Shown piece after piece: positions 22,504 through 35,045 of a stretch of DNA of 64,000 nucleotides. The stretch is from Bifidobacterium sp. ESL0732 (GTDB lineage Bacteria > Actinomycetota > Actinomycetes > Actinomycetales > Bifidobacteriaceae). Position 1 is the stretch's first letter. Every line of letters begins with the position of its first letter. Both the position numbers and the translations under genes were made by a program. The notes below the pieces were generated by a model. The model did not search any database and was not told the origin of the DNA. It saw nothing but the letters and a program-made list of their open reading frames with translations. The stretch lies in NCBI RefSeq assembly GCF_029395535.1, contig NZ_CP113920.1, forward strand, positions 744,001 to 808,000. Direction: 5' to 3'.

Positions 22504-22628
22504 TGCCACTTAAAAAGCAAAATATCGATTGAAATTGCATTTTTTGACACAAAATTGCTAAATGAAGTAATTTCATGTTATGCTGAGTAAATGAAATAGC
22601 TAAAATGTCAAAATAAGGTGAGGTATCG

Positions 22629-24032
22629 ATGCTGATAGATTTTTCGTTCTCGAATTTCCGCAGTTTCCGGGATGAGCAGGCGTTCTCGATGTCTCGTAGC
22701 GCGAAGAATAATTCGACTTCAACAGTCACTGCCGTCTATGGTTCCAATGCTTCTGGCAAATCCAATTTTCTCAAAGCGCTTGCCACGATGACGAATATGG
22801 TACGTAATAGCTATAGCCAAGGGGTGAACTCGTCGGGGATTATTAGAGACGCGTTTGCTCTGACGGATAATGCGGCTGGTATAGACATGAAACCGTCTGA
22901 ATTTCTGGCCGAGTTCATAGCCTCTGACAGGCAGAAATATCGCTATTACTTCACCTTCGATTCGGAACGGATTATTGAAGAGTCATTGACGGTTTACCGG
23001 CGTCTTGGCGATCGGCTTTCCACTCGTCCGGCCTTGCTATTCGCCCGTGAAGATGGACAGAAGCCTGTCTTTGGTCCCAGATTTGGTGCCAAAGGTCTTT
23101 TGGAGGAAACCCTGAAGCGCAGAGCCAATGCGTTGATTCTTTCCGCTGCCGCTGCTGCTGGCGTGGAGTCCACCCAACCGGCATTTGATTTTCTTGCGCG
23201 AGATATCGTGTATTGCGAGGCGTTGGCTTTCCCACAGGAAAAGCCGCGTATCGCCCAGGAATTCTCAAAGCAGACAAGATTCTCGAAAAATCTGGCAAAG
23301 TTGCTGCATTATGCTGATTTCGGCATTGGGACAATGGACGTGGTGCCGGCAAGCCTGGGATTGAACGATCAAGTCATTGCGCAACTAAAGCGACAGCTGC
23401 ATGATCAGCTTGGTGCTGATGATGAGAAATTGGACGCCATGTTCGCCCAAAGTGCCCAGCAATCCCAGCAACAGGTTCAGTTCCGTTTCCAGCATACCGG
23501 TGAGCATGGGGTCCCCAAGCAATTCAATGAGGCTCAGGAATCGCAAGGTACGCTTGGTGCGTTGTCGTTCTTCTCCCTTGCTTTAAGACAACTCTCTCAT
23601 CAGACGGTAACTTTGATTGACGAGATTGACACCAGTTTGCATCCATTGTTGGTTCGTCAGTTAGTGTCGCTGTTCGCTGACCCCGAGACTAATCCTCATG
23701 GATCTCAATTAATTTTCACTACGCATGATATCTCGTTGCTGAGTGCGGGATCTTTTAGCGGTGATCGTCTCCTTGAACCTGATCAGATTTGGTTTGTGGA
23801 AAAGGATATTGATGGAGCCTCAGAGATTTACCCCGTAACTGATATGAAACTGCGAAAAGGTGAAAATATCAGTAAGAACTATATGAATGGAGTATACGGA
23901 GCAGTACCCACGCCCGGGTTCCATTCGGTATTTGCACAAATTATCAATGAACAAGAGTCAGACGATGATTCGTTTGATGTGGGTGATGGCCAAACGAATA
24001 GCCAACGACTAGAAGCTGGTGATGGTCAATGA
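22629..24032 (+). CDS. rloA: RloA-like AAA ATPase of a restriction-linked defence pair
   Basis: 467-aa AAA/ABC-type ATPase: Walker A GSNASGKS (residues 38-45) close to an N-terminal FSFSNFRSFRD typical of RloA/AbiLi/OLD-related ATPases; GTLGALSFFSLALRQL acts as signature region; Walker B is TLIDEIDTSLHP, then IFTTHDISLL. AGGTGAGG precedes the ATG, and the stop overlaps the next start as ATGA. RloA and RloB were first named as restriction-linked ORFs beside type I systems, which is exactly this context. Expected to sense phage and license the RloB partner. Noticeably more AT-rich than the SNF2 gene. Confidence 0.85.
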   Translation: MLIDFSFSNFRSFRDEQAFSMSRSAKNNSTSTVTAVYGSNASGKSNFLKALATMTNMVRNSYSQGVNSSGIIRDAFALTDNAAGIDMKPSEFLAEFIASDRQKYRYYFTFDSERIIEESLTVYRRLGDRLSTRPALLFAREDGQKPVFGPRFGAKGLLEETLKRRANALILSAAAAAGVESTQPAFDFLARDIVYCEALAFPQEKPRIAQEFSKQTRFSKNLAKLLHYADFGIGTMDVVPASLGLNDQVIAQLKRQLHDQLGADDEKLDAMFAQSAQQSQQQVQFRFQHTGEHGVPKQFNEAQESQGTLGALSFFSLALRQLSHQTVTLIDEIDTSLHPLLVRQLVSLFADPETNPHGSQLIFTTHDISLLSAGSFSGDRLLEPDQIWFVEKDIDGASEIYPVTDMKLRKGENISKNYMNGVYGAVPTPGFHSVFAQIINEQESDDDSFDVGDGQTNSQRLEAGDGQ

Positions 24033-24667
24033 GTAAGAAGCGTTCAGCACCTGCTCACGGACGCAGCGTGCATAGGCGACATCATCGGCTTCGTCGCGAT
24101 CGTTATCTGGTCGTTTGTGGCGGTGAGGTGACCGAGCGGCAATATTTCGAGCATTGCGCGCAGGAATTCAATGTGGACATCAGGTATAAGCCCAAAGTCT
24201 ATAGTCCCTCTGCGGTAGCGAAATATGCTGCTCAGCTAAAGAAGGATGAGGAAGCTGAAGTCGGCGATGATGCCGAAGCGTATAAGAAAGTGTGGGTTGT
24301 GGTCGATGTCGACCATTTTCATGACCATGCCGAAGCTGAAAGGATATGCAAGGCAAACGGTATGAGACTCATCATTTCTAACCCATGCTTTGAGGTTTGG
24401 CTTATTGATCATATCCAGCGGTGTCCCGAAAGCTATAAGTTGACCAAGGATGTGGAGCGATATGCCAGCCAGCTTGGAATCACCAAGGGGCCCAGAAACA
24501 AATATATTGAGTTTTCTGCGATTGAGGGGAAGACGGTCCAGGCGCTGACAAATGCGTCTCGCCATAATAGCAACCGATATCAACGGCAGCAATTGACGGT
24601 GAACTCCGAGCAGGATTACGCGCCGTGGACCGACATGCCGGAAGTCATCGAGGAACTAAGGAAGTAG
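24029..24667 (+). CDS. rloB: RloB-like protein
   Basis: 212 aa with a basic N-terminus (first 30 residues are His/Arg-rich), then VVCGGEVTERQYFEH, VWVVVDVDHF and the family hallmark SNPCFEVWLIDH. This arrangement of a Glu, a DxD and a later Glu resembles a TOPRIM-like nuclease core. It belongs with RloA; comparable ATPase/TOPRIM pairs (AbiL) abort phage infection. Coupled to rloA by ATGA and followed 7 bases later by the HEPN-like gene. Confidence 0.85.
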   Translation: MSKKRSAPAHGRSVHRRHHRLRRDRYLVVCGGEVTERQYFEHCAQEFNVDIRYKPKVYSPSAVAKYAAQLKKDEEAEVGDDAEAYKKVWVVVDVDHFHDHAEAERICKANGMRLIISNPCFEVWLIDHIQRCPESYKLTKDVERYASQLGITKGPRNKYIEFSAIEGKTVQALTNASRHNSNRYQRQQLTVNSEQDYAPWTDMPEVIEELRK

Positions 24668-24674
24668 CGGGATA

Positions 24675-25832
24675 GTGAGAGAAGAAGATCACAACGGTGA
24701 CAGACAAGGTAATACCTTAGCCGGAGTCATTAACGGAATGTCTGGTGATATATGGAAACAATCGCCGATTATGAAGCAGATGAACCAGACGATATCTGGA
24801 ATTGCGAATTCTTGGGCGCAACAAAATAGCAAGCGTTTTGCAGGATACGTTTCTCAAATTAATTCAGTTATGAACGCTACAACGATATCTCAAGCTGTTG
24901 GTGCGCAGAAGGCTATAGGTGAGCTGATTTCTAGTATGTCTGTTTTAACCAACTTGACACTGCCGGTAATCGATCCCGCAATCTTTAAACAGTTCGATGC
25001 TAGTCAGTATGTTGCCGGGTTGGACCAGAGTTTGAAACTTATAGGCAGTTCGCAAGTTTCTCAATTGGGTAAAGCTGCTTCCGAATTAGCAAAGAGTTTT
25101 TCTGACTTTGGTGCTTTGCCAGGAATTCAAGATTTCTCGAACTCGCTTAAACCGATTATTGAGTCGTTTCAGGCCTTGCAAAAGTGGCAGCCTCGGTACT
25201 GGTACCCGGAGAATTTAAAGAATGTATCAGCTGAGTTTACATTAGTTGATATTTTACATATTGAACATGAAGAGGGTATTTCACTTTTTTATGTGGCTAG
25301 TACGGTTCTGATTGATAAGCTTCTTACAGCTAAATCTCCAGAGGATAGATTGGAAATTCTTGATGTTGCGCTGGAATCGATTATTGAGAATTGCCGTCAA
25401 ATATTGCAAGAGCATCGCTGCACGAAGCGGCAAAAAGAATATAGCGATTATCTTGAAGAATCATTAGAGGTTATTGAAGAAGGCCACCTAGCTGCCGGTG
25501 AGGCTTTACTTGCTGACTTAACAGAATCTTTTACCAATGATTTGGATGATGAGCAGCTGCAACAAGATTTGAGAAATCAAAAGAATCATGTGAAATTTGA
25601 AGACAAAATGGCCCTACAAGGTCAGAGTATCCGTGGCGAAGTTGCTCTAGGAGCAGTTCCTGCGGCTTTTATTCGTTATTATCCTGGAGAGACAATTCCT
25701 GTTGATTTTTCGAGACACGCTATTGCTCATAGCATGCCAAAAAAACAATTTTCCAGAGTTAATGCATCTAAGGCACTGCTTATGGTATTCGGCTTTGCAA
25801 CCTATCTGTTTGGATGGGATTTAAAAATATAG
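24675..25832 (+). CDS. Unknown protein with C-terminal HEPN-like Rx4H motif
   Basis: 385 aa from GTG (start tentative; AAGGAAG lies within the end of rloB). The first 180 residues are Ser/Gln/Asn-rich and probably helical or coiled. Residues about 205-290 are helical and acidic. The end (GEVALGAVPAAFIRYYP...PVDFSRHAIAHSMPKK) contains RHAIAH, the Rx4-6H pattern of HEPN ribonucleases, in a setting like the NRHAILHG motif of abortive-infection HEPN proteins. Tight spacing after rloB suggests a third component of that system. No family can be assigned with certainty. Strongly AT-rich. Confidence 0.65.
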   Translation: MREEDHNGDRQGNTLAGVINGMSGDIWKQSPIMKQMNQTISGIANSWAQQNSKRFAGYVSQINSVMNATTISQAVGAQKAIGELISSMSVLTNLTLPVIDPAIFKQFDASQYVAGLDQSLKLIGSSQVSQLGKAASELAKSFSDFGALPGIQDFSNSLKPIIESFQALQKWQPRYWYPENLKNVSAEFTLVDILHIEHEEGISLFYVASTVLIDKLLTAKSPEDRLEILDVALESIIENCRQILQEHRCTKRQKEYSDYLEESLEVIEEGHLAAGEALLADLTESFTNDLDDEQLQQDLRNQKNHVKFEDKMALQGQSIRGEVALGAVPAAFIRYYPGETIPVDFSRHAIAHSMPKKQFSRVNASKALLMVFGFATYLFGWDLKI

Positions 25833-25987
25833 AGTTATGGTTTTCTTCACGAATTTATTGTCTTTGAAATATGGCAAATAGGATTCTGATGCGTTGGTTC
25901 TAAGTTGTCTCATTTACAGTACACTAAGTAAATAGAATCTAGTTGGGTCAAGTGTGCCGTTTATCGGCTTTGTGGAGGTTAACATTA

Positions 25988-27556
25988 ATGGCAGCGGAAG
26001 ATAGCAAGAATCAACGCGACGAGTTGCATAAGGCGATTTGGAATATTGCTGAGAAAGAGCGCAACGCCGTCGATAGTTGGGATTTCAAAGCATATATCTT
26101 CTGCTTCTTGTTCTACCGGTTTATCTCCGAAGATCTTGCCGAATATATCGATAAAGGTGAACATGAAACCGGTAATAAAACCTTCTCATACGCTGATTTA
26201 AGCGACGAAGAAGCTGAAATAGCGCGTGAGGATGTGACGAAGGAGAAGGGCTTCTTTATGTTGCCTTCCCAGCTATTCCAGAACGTTGCTAAAAATCCCG
26301 AGAAAGACGACAAACTCAATATAACGGTTAAGAATATTTTTGCTGATATCGAGCGGTCCAGTGTTGGCACGGCTTCGGAAGATGACTTCAAAGGTTTGTT
26401 CGATGATGTCGATGTTACCAGTACCAAGTTAGGTGCCAACCTTTCTGAACGTAACGCAAGGCTTGCTGGCATAATCACCGGCATTCGTGATCTTGATTTC
26501 GGGAACATTCGAGATGCCGATATCGATTTGTTTGGTGACGCATACGAATATCTGATGAATATGTATGCCAGCAATGCCGGCAAATCGGGTGGCGAATACT
26601 TTACACCTCAGGAAGTCGCCGAGTTGCTTGCCCGCATCGTGATAGGGCATCGAACCTACGTTAACAAAGTCTACGATCCAGCTTGTGGATCAGGCTCGTT
26701 GTTGTTACGCTTCGCAAAAATCCTTGGTCAAGAGAACGTTCGTCAGGGCTTCTTCGGCCAGGAAAAGAACCCGACCACGTACAACCTTGCCCGAATCAAT
26801 ATGTTTCTGCACCATATTAATTTCGATCGCTTCGATATTGCACAAGGCGATACACTTATCAATCCAAAACACTGGGATGATCAACCATTCGATGCCATTG
26901 TTTCCAATCCGCCTTATTCGACGCATTGGAAAGGTGACAGCGACCCCACGCTCATCAATGATCCGCGATTTTCTCCTGCTGGCGTGCTGGCGCCGAAGGG
27001 ATATGCAGATTTGGCGTTCACCATGCATATGTTTTCGTGGTTGTCGACAGATGGTACCGCGGCGATAGTTGAGTTTCCTGGTGTGCTCTACCGAGGTGGG
27101 GCTGAAGAAAAGATCAGGCAGTATTTGGTTCAAGGAAATTTTGTCAGTGCTGTTATCCAGCTACCTGTCAATCTTTTCTTTGGCGTCTCTATTGCCACCT
27201 GTATTCTGGTGCTGAGCAAGTCAAAAACCGATGACAAGGTATTGTTCGTCGATGCATCTGAACAATTTGGGCATGTCGGTAACAAGAACAAGCTGATGCC
27301 AGAGAATATCGACAAAATTGCTTCGACGGTAGTTGACCGAACCGAGAAAGAGTATTTCTCCAAGCTGGTAAGTATCGACGAGATTGGCTCTGAAACCAAT
27401 CATTACAATCTTTCTGTTGGCACTTGGATTGAGAAGAAAGACACCAAAGAGAAAGTTGACATCAACGAGCTTAATCAGCGCATCAAAGGTATCGTAAGCC
27501 GCGAAAATGAGTTGCGACAGCAAATCGATGCGATTGTTGCTGATCTGGAGAGTTGA
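25988..27556 (+). CDS. hsdM: Type I restriction-modification methyltransferase subunit HsdM
   Basis: 522 aa. N-terminal helical domain, then the AdoMet motif DPACGSGSLLLR and catalytic NPPY in AIVSNPPYSTHW, which mark N6-adenine methyltransferases. SGGEYFTPQEVAELL is the HsdM signature. ATG chosen at 25988 because GGAGG lies 10 bases upstream and homology begins at once. With HsdS it methylates the target site. A DUF4238 gene starts one base after its stop. Confidence 0.95.
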   Translation: MAAEDSKNQRDELHKAIWNIAEKERNAVDSWDFKAYIFCFLFYRFISEDLAEYIDKGEHETGNKTFSYADLSDEEAEIAREDVTKEKGFFMLPSQLFQNVAKNPEKDDKLNITVKNIFADIERSSVGTASEDDFKGLFDDVDVTSTKLGANLSERNARLAGIITGIRDLDFGNIRDADIDLFGDAYEYLMNMYASNAGKSGGEYFTPQEVAELLARIVIGHRTYVNKVYDPACGSGSLLLRFAKILGQENVRQGFFGQEKNPTTYNLARINMFLHHINFDRFDIAQGDTLINPKHWDDQPFDAIVSNPPYSTHWKGDSDPTLINDPRFSPAGVLAPKGYADLAFTMHMFSWLSTDGTAAIVEFPGVLYRGGAEEKIRQYLVQGNFVSAVIQLPVNLFFGVSIATCILVLSKSKTDDKVLFVDASEQFGHVGNKNKLMPENIDKIASTVVDRTEKEYFSKLVSIDEIGSETNHYNLSVGTWIEKKDTKEKVDINELNQRIKGIVSRENELRQQIDAIVADLES

Positions 27557-27557
27557 G

Positions 27558-28538
27558 ATGACTGCAGCAGGAAAAGTGGCTCCTTCCCCGATAGGTAAGG
27601 CTGAAACTAAAAGACAACACTACGTTCCACGATTTTTCTTGTCGGGCTTTACAAGTAGAAAAGATGGGAAATTTGATGTTTTACGGAGAACCGCTTCTGG
27701 AGTAATTCGTTTGTCTGGTCAAAGGGTTGAAAATGTGGCTGTTGAACGAAATTTATATGAGGTAAAAGTTCCAGAAGCGGAAGACGGAAAGGATAATTTG
27801 TTTCCAAATGGGGTTGAAAACCTGCTATCTCAGTTTGAAGGTTCTTTCTCTGGACGTTTTCGAGTGATAATTGAGGCACTCTTAGAAGCATCAGTTCGGA
27901 AGACTTGGACAGATGCAGAATTAGAAGATATTTGCGATTCGATATCTATTTTTATTGCTGCGCTTTATGTGAGAAACCCAAAAAGCGTCAAAAAAATGCT
28001 TGAAAATGCTAAGAATCTCGTGCCTGTTTTAGAACAGTCTCAACTTGGAACATCTGATGCACTGGAACAGTTATATTCGGAAACGATGGGCTCGGATTGG
28101 TCTGAGAAAATTCATTTGACGCCGGAAATGGCATCGCAAGTTCTCGGATTATCAGAGTTAGTATCTCCGTCAAAAGCAGGTATAGAAAAGGGTAATAAGT
28201 ATCCTCTAATAGAATATGCCGAGTATCTAAGAAATTGTAGTTTCCAGTTTTTAACAACGGCGGTCGATCAGCCATTTATTGGAATATCTGAGCCCCATTT
28301 TGAGGGAGTAAGAGATTCTGGACGTTCATATGGTTTGCTTTATTTTCCTCTCAGCTCCAGATTGGCTGTCCTCATAGTTGATGATGATAAACATACCTTT
28401 GAAAAGAAGTCACTTAATAGGAAACAATTACGACTTTTCAATAGAGCCGCATTAGTAGGAGAAGAGTGGGATTGGGCTTTCTGCAGTAGGGGAGACTATC
28501 TTGATTCATTCAGGAAAAGGAATAGCGACAATGAGTAA
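27558..28538 (+). CDS. DUF4238 family protein nested between hsdM and hsdS
   Basis: 326 aa beginning MTAAGKVAPSPIGKAETKRQHYVPRFFLSGFT; KRQHYVPRFFL is the DUF4238 hallmark, possibly a metal or nucleic-acid-binding segment. The central part is helical and no transmembrane segment is seen. It starts one base after hsdM and its stop overlaps the hsdS start by 8 bases, so it is translated as part of the restriction operon. Function unknown; family members occur often near defence genes (general knowledge, not checked here). Confidence 0.8.
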   Translation: MTAAGKVAPSPIGKAETKRQHYVPRFFLSGFTSRKDGKFDVLRRTASGVIRLSGQRVENVAVERNLYEVKVPEAEDGKDNLFPNGVENLLSQFEGSFSGRFRVIIEALLEASVRKTWTDAELEDICDSISIFIAALYVRNPKSVKKMLENAKNLVPVLEQSQLGTSDALEQLYSETMGSDWSEKIHLTPEMASQVLGLSELVSPSKAGIEKGNKYPLIEYAEYLRNCSFQFLTTAVDQPFIGISEPHFEGVRDSGRSYGLLYFPLSSRLAVLIVDDDKHTFEKKSLNRKQLRLFNRAALVGEEWDWAFCSRGDYLDSFRKRNSDNE

Positions 28539-29703
28539 AATTGACGAGATACTTGAGCAGCTTTGTCCTGATGGGGTTGAGTATAGAGCTTTAGCTGATG
28601 TATTTGAAACGAGGAATGGATATACACCTTCGAAAAAGAATTCTGAATATTGGACGGATGGTTCTGTTAATTGGTTCCGAATGGAAGATATTCGTGCAAA
28701 TGGACATATTTTGTCTGATTCAATTCAAAAGGTGTCTCACTCAGCAGTGAAAGGTGGAGAGCCTTTCGCGGCTGATTCGTTGATTGTAGCAACGTCTGCA
28801 ACAATTGGTGAGCATGCTTTAGTTACTGTTCCATTCCTTTGTAATCAGCGTTTTACCTGTCTGACAAGAAAGGCTGAATTTGTCAATAAATTGGATATGA
28901 AATTCTTTCTTTACTATGCAGATTTGCTTGATAAATACTGTCTGGAACATACGAATAATGGCGGTTTTGCGTCGGTTTCTATGACTGCTTTTCGTGACTT
29001 TCCAGTTGCTATACCACCGTTGGAAATTCAGCAGGAAATTGTGCGAATTCTGGATTCATTTACTAAGCTTGAGTTGGAGCTTGAGTTGGAGCTTGAGTTG
29101 CGCAAAACACAATATGATTATTATCGTAATCGTCTTATTGATTTCGCAGAAGATACTTCGTTGCTAGAACTAGGTGAAGTAGTTTTTATGAAAGCCGGGA
29201 AACATATAGCTGGTTCTGAAATAAAAGACGTTCAATCACAAGAGAATCCATATCCGTGTTATGGAGGGAATGGTATACGAGGTTACGTTTCCGAGTTCAA
29301 TAATCAAGGTGAGAAAGTTCTTATTGGGCGGCAAGGGGCATTATGCGGTAATATTTGCAGGGTGTCTGGTAAGTTTTATGCAACTGAACATGCTGTTGTA
29401 ACTACGTGTAATGAGCACATACTTCCTGCCTATGCATTTCATATGCTAACTGCTGCTAATTTAAATCAATACAAATCGCAAGGCGCTCAGCCAGGTTTAG
29501 CAGTTTCGAATTTAAAGAAAATTAAAATCCAGGTTCCTTCAATTGAGCAACAAAGACATATTGCAAATGTTCTTGATCAATTCAGCGCATTAACGACGTC
29601 GCTAACCGATGGTTTACCTGCTGAGATTCAGGCCAGGCATCAACAGTACGAGTATTATCGGGATAAGTTACTTGATTTTCCAAGAAAGAAGACTGAGGCA
29701 TGA
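28531..29703 (+). CDS. hsdS: Type I restriction specificity subunit HsdS
   Basis: 390 aa with two target-recognition domains. The first runs from about residue 10 to 150, followed by the central conserved helix IPPLEIQQEIVRILDSF, then a repeated LELE stretch and LRKTQYDYYRNRLI. The second domain ends with QVPSIEQQRHIANVLDQF and a matching distal helix. Each domain reads half of a bipartite site. The central helix is lengthened by a 12-base repeat, listed separately. Stop overlaps hsdR as ATGA. Confidence 0.94.
   Translation: MSKIDEILEQLCPDGVEYRALADVFETRNGYTPSKKNSEYWTDGSVNWFRMEDIRANGHILSDSIQKVSHSAVKGGEPFAADSLIVATSATIGEHALVTVPFLCNQRFTCLTRKAEFVNKLDMKFFLYYADLLDKYCLEHTNNGGFASVSMTAFRDFPVAIPPLEIQQEIVRILDSFTKLELELELELELRKTQYDYYRNRLIDFAEDTSLLELGEVVFMKAGKHIAGSEIKDVQSQENPYPCYGGNGIRGYVSEFNNQGEKVLIGRQGALCGNICRVSGKFYATEHAVVTTCNEHILPAYAFHMLTAANLNQYKSQGAQPGLAVSNLKKIKIQVPSIEQQRHIANVLDQFSALTTSLTDGLPAEIQARHQQYEYYRDKLLDFPRKKTEA
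29068..29100 (+). repeat. 12-bp tandem repeat in the hsdS spacer helix
   Basis: CTTGAGTTGGAG occurs twice in tandem (29068-29079, 29080-29091) followed by nine bases of a third copy. It encodes LELE units in the helix that sets the distance between the two recognition domains. Confidence 0.95.
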
Positions 29704-32700
29704 TCGTTGATGACCAGATAACCTCTGCAACGGAACATTTGGACAAGACATATTCCATCCTGCTGGAAGGGCCGGAGGAAACAGTCTGTACTGAAGCTCC
29801 GAGCGTTCCGAGCAATTCTGCTGCCTACCAGTCTGAGGCGGAGCTGGAGGCTCAGCTTATCAAGCAGTTGTGTGCTCAGGGATATCAGCGAATTTTGGTC
29901 CATACCCAAGATGAGATGGTTCTTAATCTGCGTCATCAGATTGAAAATCTTAATGGTTTTGTATTTATCGATGCGGATTGGGAAACTTTTTTCCAAACGA
30001 AAATCGCAAACGCTTCCGATGGCATCGTTGAGAAGACTCGTATCATCCAGCATTCGCCGGTGATTGATTTTACGACCAGTGATGGTGTCCTTCATAATGT
30101 CATGCTTCTTGACCGTAATCATATTCATCACAATCAGCTGCAGGTACTCAACCAATATGAAGCCAATGAAGGCACCCACAAGAATCGTTATGACGTCACC
30201 ATTCTTGTCAATGGACTACCGCTTGTCCATATTGAACTCAAACGGCGTGGAGTTGATCTCCGGCAGGCGTTCAACCAAATCGAACGTTACCAACGGGAAA
30301 GCTTCTGGTCTCAATCAGGACTTTTTGAATATGTTCAGCTTTTCATTATTTCGAATGGTTCTCTGACCAAGTACTACTCCAACACAACGCGTTGGCAGAA
30401 AACCCACGATGAACGAGGCAAAAAGACCAGTGCTTCCTATCAGTTCACAAGCTGGTGGACTGATGCCAAAAATCATCGAATTATGGACCTTGTGCCCTTT
30501 ACTGCTTCGTTCCTTTCTCGTGGTACGCTGCTGATGATATTGACGCATTATTGCGTGCTTGATGTCGACGACAATCTTCTAGTCATGCGTCCATATCAGA
30601 TATGCGCAACCGAACGTATCCTCAACCGAATCCTGATTTCTGAGATTAGTAAGAAACGTCTTGGGACCAGTGCGGCAGGTGGCTATATTTGGCACACCAC
30701 TGGTTCAGGCAAGACGCTTACCTCATTCAAGACCGCTATTCTCGCTTCCCAGATGGAGGGAATCAACAAGGTACTGTTTGTCGTGGATCGTAAGGATCTC
30801 GATTATCAGACAATGAAGGAATACAATAAATTCCAACCCGGAGCTGTGAACGGTTCAACGAATACTGCGGCATTAACGGAAAACCTTGAATCGAACGATC
30901 CTGACAAGCGTATCTGTGTTACCACTATCCAGAAATTAGCCGTCTATCTTTCGCATGCGCAGAAGGGCAACCCGTTATTTGCTGAGCATGTTGTTTTCAT
31001 ATTCGATGAATGCCATCGGTCTCAATTCGGTAAGATGCATAAGGCTATAACTTCGGCATTTAAGAATTACCATCTGTTCGGGTTTACGGGGACGCCTATT
31101 TTTGCAAAGAACGCACAATCTGGCGGAGACCCCGAACTGAAGACGACTCAGCAAGCATTCGGTGACTGCTTGCATAAATATACTGTTGTCAACGCGATTG
31201 ACGATGGCAACGTTTTGCCGTTTAAAGTGGATTATGTCAAGACGTTTAGTCATAAGAACGGTCGTCCTGATGAACAAGTCGAAGGCATTGATACCAATAC
31301 AGCTTGGCAAAATCCGAAGCGTATCCGGCTTATTTCTCAATATATACTTGACCACTATGCTCAGAAAACCAAGAGAGATTCGGCCTATCAATACAAAGAT
31401 GCTTACCACATGGGGTTCAACTCGATTTTGGCTTGCGACTCCATCTCATCAGCTAAGGCATACTATACCGAGATTCAATCGTTACTTCCTGACTATCCTG
31501 AGCTGAATCTTAAGGTGGCAACTATCTTTACCTATGCTCCGAATGGTGAGGAAGACGATGCCCAGGGCATACTGACCGAAGAACAGATGGACATTGCTGG
31601 CATGAAACCGGCTGATCGAGATTTTCTTGACGCGGCCATCGCTGATTACAACAAGATGTTCAAGAGCAATTTCGGTACTGATGGTAAGGGATTTGACAGA
31701 TATTACAAGGATGTTTCTCGGCGTATGAAAAACCGGGATTTGGATTTGCTCATCGTCGTTGACATGTTCCTTACTGGATTTGACGCCAAGACACTCAATA
31801 CGTTGTGGGTCGATAAGAATCTCAGGCTTCATGGATTGATTCAAGCGTTTAGCCGAACCAATCGTATTCTTAATTCAGTCAAGACTTTCGGCAATATCGT
31901 TTGCTTCCGTGATTTGTCGGATGAGGTGGACGAGGCGCTTGGGCTTTTCGGCGATCCTAATGCGGCCGGCATTGTTTTGCTTAAGCCATATGAGGATTAT
32001 TTCACGAAATATAGCGAAGCTTTGGCACACTTGCGCGATGATTTTCCGTTGGATGGTGATTTCTCTGGATTAGGGGAGAAGGCGGAAAAGGATTTCATCA
32101 AAACGTTTGGTGCTCTGCTCAGGCTTCGGAATATTCTTACTTGCTTTGATCAATTCGCTGACGATGACCCTTTGAAAGGTCATGATCGCGAACTACAGGA
32201 TTATCAGAGCCATTATCTGGACCTTGCCGATAAATACAAGCGACGTGACCAAGGAGAACGTGTCAGCATCTGCGACGATTTGGTCTTTGAGATGGAGCTT
32301 GTAAAACAAGTTGAAGTCAACATCGACTATATCCTCATGTTGGTCGAGCAATATCACGGTGAGAACATTGAGGATAAGCAAATAGCCGATACGATTCGTA
32401 GCTCTGTGGCATCTTCGCCGGAATTGCGAGACAAGGCTGATCTTATCGATGCGTTCCTTCAACTGGTCGGCTTTGGCGACCAAGACCCGATCATTCTTCT
32501 TAAGTCGCTCACCACTGAGGAACGACATGAAGTGATTTCAGGCCAGTGGAAGACCTTCGTTGCCGATTCCATGGAGCATGAACTCGATGCAATAATTTCG
32601 AGCCACAATCTGAAACCAGATGAAACCAAGGCATTCATGTCAGAAGCTTTCATTTCTGGCAGAGTGACTGATGAAGGCACAGCAATCCGCCGCATCATGA

Positions 32701-32831
32701 AGCCAATCTCCCGTTTCGCCAAGGACAATCCCTACGCCGAGCAGCGTCAGGATGTGGTCGATTCCTTGACTGCGTTCTACAACCGCTACAAGAGTCTGAC
32801 GCCGGTGTATCCAAACGCTGCTGTAGATTGA
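29700..32831 (+). CDS. hsdR: Type I restriction endonuclease subunit HsdR
   Basis: 1043 aa. The N-terminal nuclease domain has the RYDVTILVNGLPLVHIELKRRG segment with the E-x-K of a PD-(D/E)xK active site. The SF2 motor follows with TTGSGKT, DECHRSQFG, GFTGTP and a second lobe with LDLLIVVDMFLTGFDAKTLNTL and QAFSRTNR. It translocates DNA and cuts unmethylated phage DNA with HsdM2S. The frame is intact over the full family length, so the restriction system is probably functional. Confidence 0.95.
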   Translation: MIVDDQITSATEHLDKTYSILLEGPEETVCTEAPSVPSNSAAYQSEAELEAQLIKQLCAQGYQRILVHTQDEMVLNLRHQIENLNGFVFIDADWETFFQTKIANASDGIVEKTRIIQHSPVIDFTTSDGVLHNVMLLDRNHIHHNQLQVLNQYEANEGTHKNRYDVTILVNGLPLVHIELKRRGVDLRQAFNQIERYQRESFWSQSGLFEYVQLFIISNGSLTKYYSNTTRWQKTHDERGKKTSASYQFTSWWTDAKNHRIMDLVPFTASFLSRGTLLMILTHYCVLDVDDNLLVMRPYQICATERILNRILISEISKKRLGTSAAGGYIWHTTGSGKTLTSFKTAILASQMEGINKVLFVVDRKDLDYQTMKEYNKFQPGAVNGSTNTAALTENLESNDPDKRICVTTIQKLAVYLSHAQKGNPLFAEHVVFIFDECHRSQFGKMHKAITSAFKNYHLFGFTGTPIFAKNAQSGGDPELKTTQQAFGDCLHKYTVVNAIDDGNVLPFKVDYVKTFSHKNGRPDEQVEGIDTNTAWQNPKRIRLISQYILDHYAQKTKRDSAYQYKDAYHMGFNSILACDSISSAKAYYTEIQSLLPDYPELNLKVATIFTYAPNGEEDDAQGILTEEQMDIAGMKPADRDFLDAAIADYNKMFKSNFGTDGKGFDRYYKDVSRRMKNRDLDLLIVVDMFLTGFDAKTLNTLWVDKNLRLHGLIQAFSRTNRILNSVKTFGNIVCFRDLSDEVDEALGLFGDPNAAGIVLLKPYEDYFTKYSEALAHLRDDFPLDGDFSGLGEKAEKDFIKTFGALLRLRNILTCFDQFADDDPLKGHDRELQDYQSHYLDLADKYKRRDQGERVSICDDLVFEMELVKQVEVNIDYILMLVEQYHGENIEDKQIADTIRSSVASSPELRDKADLIDAFLQLVGFGDQDPIILLKSLTTEERHEVISGQWKTFVADSMEHELDAIISSHNLKPDETKAFMSEAFISGRVTDEGTAIRRIMKPISRFAKDNPYAEQRQDVVDSLTAFYNRYKSLTPVYPNAAVD

Positions 32832-32894: not shown

Positions 32895-33845
32895 TTATTC
32901 TATTTCCTGAGTAGCATTTTTCTGTTCCTTCAAGAGTTGAAGAATGCTCTTTACGGGTAGATAAGTTGAATACTTTCTAATCAGCCGTTGATAATAATCT
33001 GGTTCGATATTTTTAAGATAAGTTAAATAGCCTAATATTTCATCAGGCTCTCCCTCTCCATTTTTTATATAAGTATATAAGGCTTTTTTAATCTTTTTCT
33101 TCCATCTAGTGCCAGTTGTTAGACGATTATGTCTTTGAATTGTAATGCCAGTTACTTTAATATGTGATTTGCCTGAGTAAAAATGTGTTTTTCTATAATT
33201 TGGTATAAAATCATGTTCTTCAATATAAGAAAAAATGTCGCTCTGAACTTGTGGTTTGATGAACTTAGAGGACGAAATGTAAATGTCATCAGAATATCTG
33301 GTGTATATAAGTTTCGAATTTTCGCAGTAATTACCAACTTCATTATCAAAGTCATACATGATTGCATTAGATAAGTGAGGAGATGATGGTGCTCCCATAC
33401 AAGCTTTATGATTTCTGAACAGTATTTTGTCTAGCGTGGCTTCCAGGTCTGGGTATAAAAGCCCTTTAGCTTTAATTTCTGAGATATGTTGATTAAGAAG
33501 TGCATTAAATGAATTATCGGTAATTGAAGGGAAAAAATTTCTTATATCTGTATGAAAAAGATGCGAGGCTTTTATATGAGCTTGTGCAGTTTTTATGGTA
33601 GAGTTCCCAGATTCATATGCCATCGCGTATTTTGAAATAGGGAAGAAATAAAAAAACTTTTTTACGGCCCAATATTGAAGTAGCTTTAGGGTTTCACTGG
33701 GTTCTCGAATGATTCTATAGCCACCAGTCTTTTTAGGGATTTTATAAGACCGATATAAAGTGTCTGCGTTTATAACGGTCGATTGTACCAAATCAATAGA
33801 AATCTTTAAATCTTCGGAAATAGAGTTGACTAAGGAATCAGGCAT
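32895..33845 (-). CDS. Retron reverse transcriptase
   Basis: 316 aa. RT motifs in order: GYRIIREP, HTDIRNFFPSI with the first catalytic Asp (residue 100), GAPSSPHLSNAI, YSDD (184-187; the YxDD box) and VTGITI (231-233), the VTG that marks retron RTs. TAQAH (86-90) sits where retrons have NAxxH. There is no maturase or endonuclease domain, so it is not a group II intron RT. The start ATG overlaps the effector's stop by 8 bases (ATGCCTGA). It would reverse-transcribe the msd RNA from the 2'-OH of a branching G to make msDNA. Very AT-rich, unlike the core genome. Confidence 0.93.
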   Translation of the reverse strand: MPDSLVNSISEDLKISIDLVQSTVINADTLYRSYKIPKKTGGYRIIREPSETLKLLQYWAVKKFFYFFPISKYAMAYESGNSTIKTAQAHIKASHLFHTDIRNFFPSITDNSFNALLNQHISEIKAKGLLYPDLEATLDKILFRNHKACMGAPSSPHLSNAIMYDFDNEVGNYCENSKLIYTRYSDDIYISSSKFIKPQVQSDIFSYIEEHDFIPNYRKTHFYSGKSHIKVTGITIQRHNRLTTGTRWKKKIKKALYTYIKNGEGEPDEILGYLTYLKNIEPDYYQRLIRKYSTYLPVKSILQLLKEQKNATQEIE

Positions 33846-34881
33846 TTCCCATCACACTTTCATCTTTAAAACGGTATTTTCTTTCAAGGATATTGACACG
33901 TTGTTGCTGTAATGCGTTATAAGTACTAATTGTCCGATTAAAAAGAAAAAGCTGATTCTTGTCTAGAATCTCAGTGGAATAGTAATAGTCGATTTTTCTG
34001 GAATGATTTTTACTTGTCGGAACGGTTAATGTTTTTTTGCTTGCGAGATTTGCAGACTCTAAAAAAGCTAAAATATGTTTTATTTTAATTCTTTTACCCG
34101 CCCCATTTTCATTATCCATAATTAAACCTATATCCTTCTTGTACCCTTTTACTTCGCGATAAAGCATCATTAAGTCTGAAAGGCTAATAGGTGACGCTAT
34201 TAATAGTAAATCCATGATTTCATGTACAAATGAATCCAATCGAGCCTGGGTCGGATTGGACTTTGGATTATTTAGTTTCCGATTTTTGAGCAGTGTACTT
34301 AATCTATACTTGAGTGTAGTTTGTACATTCAAACTCAATATTGAGGTATCATCATCCTTTACAGGTGCGTATAGAATTGATGCACCAGCATTTCTTGATT
34401 TTTCGATAGGTCCTTGAACGATAAAAGATTTATTGTTCTCATATTCCTTTTCAACCAAGATGACCAGTTTCTTATTTAATTCCTCTGAACTGTGCGAGAA
34501 AGCACCAAGTTCACAAATAGTGCCTGCACTTTCAACTGGAAGAATTATGAGATCGCATACCTCGGCAAGAAACTCTTCAAAAGTAAGTAAATCTAAATTT
34601 TGTTTTTCATTATAAAAATCTTCTGAAAAAACTATATTAATTTTTGAATTTTGCCTTGTTATAAAGTCAGCAATGTTATAACGGTTCGTATTTGATTGTT
34701 CGGAACGTGGAACACGATTGCCGTTTTTATCTAAAATTTGTTTGCCACAGATAAAAACAAAAGAATGTTCGAATGAGGGCTTTTTCATACCGTCGTTACC
34801 GGGGTCGAGGTGTGCGGAAAGATTCTCAACTACAGAATCGGGATAGATATTTGGATTAAGAACCCTTTTCTCTTTCCGCAT
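33838..34881 (-). CDS. Retron effector, nucleoside deoxyribosyltransferase-like (St85/type II family)
   Basis: 347 aa. HSFVFICGK (about 40-47) and LAEVCDLIILPVESAG followed by TICELGAF (about 105-128) match the NDT/SLOG-like fold of type II retron effectors: a nucleotide-binding strand and the ExxG...ELGAF loop. The C-terminal third looks like a helix-turn-helix DNA-binding region (about 230-310). AAGGAG eight bases upstream fixes the ATG, which lies 20 bases after the a2 repeat of the RNA. In the characterised relatives the RT-msDNA complex holds the effector inactive until a phage disturbs it. Assignment to the family is by motif and context. Confidence 0.85.
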   Translation of the reverse strand: MRKEKRVLNPNIYPDSVVENLSAHLDPGNDGMKKPSFEHSFVFICGKQILDKNGNRVPRSEQSNTNRYNIADFITRQNSKINIVFSEDFYNEKQNLDLLTFEEFLAEVCDLIILPVESAGTICELGAFSHSSEELNKKLVILVEKEYENNKSFIVQGPIEKSRNAGASILYAPVKDDDTSILSLNVQTTLKYRLSTLLKNRKLNNPKSNPTQARLDSFVHEIMDLLLIASPISLSDLMMLYREVKGYKKDIGLIMDNENGAGKRIKIKHILAFLESANLASKKTLTVPTSKNHSRKIDYYYSTEILDKNQLFLFNRTISTYNALQQQRVNILERKYRFKDESVMGNA

Positions 34882-34901
34882 CGCCTTGGCTCCTTACAGA
34901 G

Positions 34902-35045
34902 AAACGTCTACGACGGGGCCGGATTGTTTGTGACCGACTCCGAAGACTTGGAAGAGTCGGTCACAAACAATCCGGCCCCGTCCTTGCCTTACATTCCTTC
35001 GTCCGAAATTGCATTCAGAACTTAACTACTCTTAGCTAGACGTTT
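34902..35045 (-). ncRNA. Retron msr-msd RNA
   Basis: 144-base RNA on the - strand directly upstream of the effector and RT. The a1 repeat AAACGTCTA (35045-35037) is perfectly complementary to a2 TAGACGTTT (34910-34902). Directly after a1 comes AGC, whose G (35036) matches the branching guanosine context of known retrons. The msr part has a 6-bp hairpin (35002-35019, loop of 6). The msd part is a perfect 28-bp hairpin (34913-34940 with 34954-34981) with a 13-base loop. The predicted msDNA equals the + strand from about 34911 to about 34990, linked to G35036. Confidence 0.9.

Follow-up and report, generated by a model that had tools for sequence, protein, structure and literature searches.

Phage-defence systems that combine an ATPase with a TOPRIM-type protein have been grouped together, AbiL and PARIS among them, and in PARIS AriB is sequestered by AriA and set free when a phage protein acts as the trigger (PMC12409363). 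RloB, the second protein of the AbiL-type pair, is related to OLD_TOPRIM, and RloB genes occur in type I restriction-modification (RM) operons (PMC10440598). RM operons are also known to harbor the HEPN RNases PrrC and ApeA, and the motif rule for HEPN RNases is Rx4-6H with N, D or H following the Arg (PMC3710099), while RM-like BREX loci can contain auxiliary TOPRIM and HEPN backup effectors (PMC12839542). The literature that we consulted on RloB together with HEPN proteins does not describe an RloA-RloB-HEPN trio.

The locus analysed here lies in a 64,000-nucleotide stretch of DNA from Bifidobacterium sp. ESL0732 (referred to as the window) and places an rloA-rloB pair and a third gene immediately upstream of a type I RM operon (Table 1). 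When the open reading frames are read from the window sequence, rloA and rloB overlap by ATGA at 24029-24032, and the GTG codon of the third gene follows the rloB stop codon after 7 bases (24668-24674), with the RHAIAH motif near the end of the 385-residue product (residues 347-352); the overlap, the spacing, the protein length and the motif agree with a preliminary description of this DNA. The third gene has an alternative in-frame ATG at 24738; its true start is uncertain and the N-terminus of the protein is unconserved.

Table 1. Features of the rloA-rloB-third gene locus (positions are those of the window)
Feature	Position	Strand	Description
rloA / abiLi	22629..24032	+	ABC-type AAA ATPase, 467 aa
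rloB / abiLii	24029..24667	+	RloB-like (TOPRIM-related) protein, 212 aa
Third gene	24675..25832	+	385 aa, GTG start at 24675; undescribed all-helical family
RHAIAH codons, third gene residues 347-352	25713..25730	+	21-sequence alignment
rloA-rloB-third gene cassette interval	22504..25987	+	Absent from the syntenic G096 locus
rloA upstream region, possible operator	22528..22628	+	Conserved with G105; putative function
hsdM, type I methyltransferase	25988..27556	+	ATG at 25988; Pfam N6_Mtase 3.9e-107, HsdM_N
DUF4238 gene, between hsdM and hsdS	27507..28538	+	Second accessory slot
hsdS, specificity subunit	28501..29703	+	Pfam Methylase_S 1.2e-50
hsdR, EcoR124-type restriction subunit	29700..32831	+	EcoR124_C 2.1e-59, HSDR_N 1.3e-43

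The family assignment of the first two genes is clear. RloA matches Pfam AAA_21 (1.4e-31) and the PADLOC AbiLi model (1.8e-88), with a further match to the AriA model (4.3e-31), and its Walker A (GSNASGKS) and Walker B (LIDEID) motifs are intact, as read from the sequence; RloB matches Pfam RloB (3.8e-32) and PADLOC AbiLii (2.2e-24). An AbiLi/RloA-type AAA ATPase gene with an adjacent RloB-family gene is thus present, and by sequence the two genes are a known AbiL-type phage-defence pair; the earlier remark that RloAB resembles AbiL was correct, both AbiL models being strongly matched. The region from upstream of rloA into its start (22528-22822) is 76% identical in DNA to the corresponding region of a second genome of the genus, G105. 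It contains an imperfect inverted repeat, AAATTGCT-N6-AGTAATTT, which in G105 is perfect (AAATTGCT-N6-AGCAATTT) and which is a possible operator. The rloA upstream regions of several loci of the family (L037-L048) have in common a TTTTTGCAaaAA..TTGCA-like element close to a possible -10, which in G105 forms the perfect inverted repeat just given, and it is possible that regulation of RloAB is shared among these loci through the upstream element.

Comparison with relatives shows that the RM locus can exist without this cassette. The G096 genome has the same SNF2 gene (87% DNA identity at its end) and the same hsdM (94% amino acid identity), with only about 110 bp from the SNF2 stop codon to the hsdM ATG and with no rloA, rloB or third gene, and homology of the window to both G096 and G105 begins at 25988, the hsdM start codon. 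Because the syntenic G096 locus lacks all three genes, we consider them to be present/absent cargo of the type I RM locus. G105 has the order rloA-rloB-(DUF2806)-third gene-hsdM at a different chromosomal site, and identity to the window falls from 93% for hsdM to 60% for rloA, 55% for rloB and 33% for the third gene (amino acids for these three). The lower identity of the third gene, together with its different GC3 (0.35 vs 0.49 for rloA and 0.56 for rloB), suggests that it was acquired or replaced separately from rloAB, although fast evolution would likewise lower the identity. The slot between hsdM and hsdS holds the DUF4238 gene in the window; in G105 it is occupied by a DUF4145 gene (L037:1910-2674), and further relatives have different genes there, which suggests a second site at which accessory genes are exchanged. 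Just past hsdR, on the minus strand, lies a type II-A retron (32895-34985), with a reverse transcriptase gene at 32895-33845 (PADLOC RT_II-A, 8e-73), a partner gene at 33838-34881 for a nucleoside deoxyribosyltransferase-like protein (NDT_II-A, 1.5e-36) and, upstream of these genes, a strong stem-loop at 34895-34991 that may be the msr-msd RNA.

Do the three genes form one system, with RloA-RloB sensing infection and controlling a HEPN RNase as output, as the preliminary description proposed? In its favor are the tight spacing (a 4-bp overlap and a 7-bp gap), the lack of a sigma-70-like site at the plus-strand gene junctions and the recurrence of the gene order in G105 at another chromosomal site, with third genes far more divergent (33% identity) than rloA and rloB (60% and 55%); because G105 repeats the order, some coupling of the third gene with RloAB is possible. 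A scan for promoters and terminators gave sites no more numerous than in shuffled sequences. The gene-neighborhood survey that had been proposed as a check, run here on sampled genomes, points the other way. An RloB-like match is found in 24 of 189 genomes of the window's taxonomic family, and among the 16 fetched loci in which both rloA and rloB are called, the third gene is present in two, the window and G105, leaving 14 RloAB loci without it. Conversely, RloAB was found beside none of the relatives of the third gene outside these two genomes (0 of about 22 loci, the flanks of some being short or ending at a contig edge); the homologues thus occur mostly without RloAB, the outcome that the preliminary description had named as refuting its proposal. 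In G103, for example, the third gene stands near an AbiH gene and has no RloAB. Even in G105 a DUF2806 gene, with a weak match to Abi_alpha as well, intervenes between rloB and the third gene (L037:4395-6528), and the third gene is frameshifted directly after R-N-T-L-A, such that the His and the final helix are out of frame (an assembly error being possible). The slot behind rloB may also take other genes, since in G043 a different gene of 338 codons, without a Pfam match, begins 10 bp past rloB (L043:6795-7811). Given these counts, the intervening gene and frameshift in G105 and the differing base composition of the third gene, we regard a three-part system as distinctly unlikely. A variant, in which RloAB recruited the HEPN RNase in some members of the genus so that a single sensor would have two outputs, a TOPRIM-type nuclease and an RNase of the HEPN kind, with G105 as a second example to which a DUF2806/Abi_alpha-like protein was added and in which the HEPN-like gene is now frameshifted, is highly unlikely.

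Another tie would be to the RM system itself. Both loci of the window's genus have the third gene directly before hsdM, and the hsdMSR complex of PrrC keeps this HEPN RNase in an inactive state (PMC3710099), so that the third protein could be imagined as a latent RNase held by the adjacent type I RM enzyme and freed by phage anti-restriction proteins. However, neither hsdM nor hsdR was found in the flanks of the third-gene relatives elsewhere, some of these flanks being short or ending at a contig edge, and the protein has no ATPase domain, unlike PrrC/RloC, which makes such a guard role very improbable. No neighbor is widely shared among the third-gene loci, and no conserved antitoxin-like neighbor was seen among them; the neighbors of the Pseudonocardia relatives include caspase/EACC1/NACHT-like genes. 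Because RloAB is absent near the relatives and no neighbor is widely conserved, the third gene appears to stand alone, and because its family is almost always found in this way, the trio looks like neighboring defence cargo and not like a new three-part system. Two independent cargoes are better supported than either the three-part or the guard reading.

What, then, is the third protein? It has no family match in Pfam, PADLOC, NCBIfam or PHROGs, and the window protein as query gave no matches in either the plasmid or the phage collection, in scans that look for short conserved patterns and pass over distant homologues. Genome searches identified relatives within the genus in G105 (32-33% identity) and G103 (37%), and profile searches added others in further Actinobacteria, Pseudonocardia and viral contigs; plasmid relatives (Streptomyces, Nocardia, Dietzia) surfaced only when the query was a relative from Pseudonocardia, and contig scans gave no match with the A3 query and one with A4. 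In all, 20 unbroken, diverged relatives were collected from actinobacterial chromosomes, plasmids and viral contigs and aligned with the window protein, to which they are 14-29% identical; the G105 protein was left out because of its frameshift. Only four columns of this 21-protein alignment are invariant, P178, G201, R347 and H352, such that both the Arg and the His of the motif are kept in 21 of 21 sequences, and the position after the Arg (348) is His in 19 and Asn in two. N180, C240 and an 'AQALA' element are conserved as well. It should be noted that a lone R[HND]x3-4H has no significance, many chance ORFs containing one, and that the significance of the motif comes solely from its conservation. 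With Rx4-6H and a polar residue after the Arg in all 21 aligned proteins, the motif fits that of HEPN RNases. A conserved acidic residue in helix 2 (Ex3[KR]), which is frequent but not obligatory in HEPN proteins, was sought, and ED or EN precedes C240 in many members without being invariant.

Structural comparison is less telling. An AF2 model of residues 161-385 built from six sequences is all-helical, with moderate scores (pLDDT 66.5, pTM 0.71), and in it R-x4-H lies on a short helix of low confidence that directly precedes the last one, instead of closing a long helix 3; the full-length model from two sequences reached a pLDDT of 41. Structure searches returned the HEPN proteins HepS (9oik; Z 4.3 over 127 residues, 4.8 Å) and Csm6' (8pe3; Z 4.0 over 97 residues, 4.3 Å), both only among unrelated helical bundles, with GPCRs and rhodopsins at equal Z. 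Foldseek gave no significant match to the PDB (best E 1.6) or to BFVD (best a siphovirus protein, prob 0.85, E 0.22), and hhalign against the Abi_C and HEPN_Apea sets was negative (~0.2% probability). The HEPN signature reported earlier therefore stands as far as the invariant R-x4-H is concerned, while the fold and profile searches do not confirm HEPN membership. R347 and H352 could instead be structural residues, or bind a ligand or RNA, in an unrelated helical family, as might be argued from the lack of a significant structural or profile link to HEPN, from conserved features that correspond to no described HEPN signature (P178, N180, G201, C240, 'AQALA') and from the variable acidic partner; against this stand the exact R[HN]xxxH, whose two catalytic positions do not vary among 21 diverged proteins, and the all-alpha model, in which the last helix directly follows the motif, and we consider it unlikely. 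The protein thus likely belongs to the HEPN superfamily, and it is a candidate HEPN-like RNase of an undescribed, possibly new, HEPN-like family.

The explanation that we favor, and hold to be reasonably probable, is that of an hsdMSR island carrying a self-sufficient AbiL pair and a separately acquired, stand-alone HEPN-like toxin as accessory cargo. It builds on the observed gene order, family assignments, R/H invariance, relatives without RloAB and cassette-free locus, and the HEPN and TOPRIM effectors described in RM and RM-like loci (PMC3710099, PMC12839542) offer parallels. The accessory defence cargo would occupy the position just upstream of hsdM; RloA would be the ABC ATPase sensor or scaffold and RloB, a TOPRIM-related nuclease, would be the effector, which infection would probably release or activate, by analogy with AriA and AriB in PARIS. 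The third protein would cleave RNA through R347 and H352 and thereby stop translation, acting as an abortive-infection toxin in its own right and as a backup effector, so that the pair and the toxin would be two independent defence cargoes in one RM locus. Taken by itself, the trio probably reflects ordinary island architecture on a known theme. In related genomes this RM lineage carries the cassette, lacks it or has its contents changed, and in this sense abortive-infection cargo is exchanged at type I RM loci. The more useful outcome is an uncatalogued actinobacterial family with an invariant R[HN]xxxH, found on chromosomes, plasmids and viral contigs, which is a plausible stand-alone HEPN toxin missed by the defence-gene library searched.

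Set against known systems, the locus agrees with AbiL in that both models are matched in the same order, here by overlapping ORFs, and differs, as far as the genes tell, in having an extra third gene from outside AbiL. PARIS has the same two-gene layout of ABC ATPase and TOPRIM-type nuclease, and RloA matches the AriA model, but the second gene of the window is RloB and not of the AriB family. With HEPN endoribonucleases the third family shares the invariant R-x4-H, the His or Asn after the Arg, an all-helical model and the position of the motif before the last helix, whereas it has no significant fold or profile match and no Pfam HEPN match, and has a conserved core of its own (G201, C240, AQALA). 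Like PrrC/RloC and ApeA, finally, the third gene is a HEPN-like candidate inside an RM locus; it differs from PrrC/RloC in lacking a fused ATPase domain, and from these RM-embedded RNases in belonging to a family that lives mostly outside RM loci.
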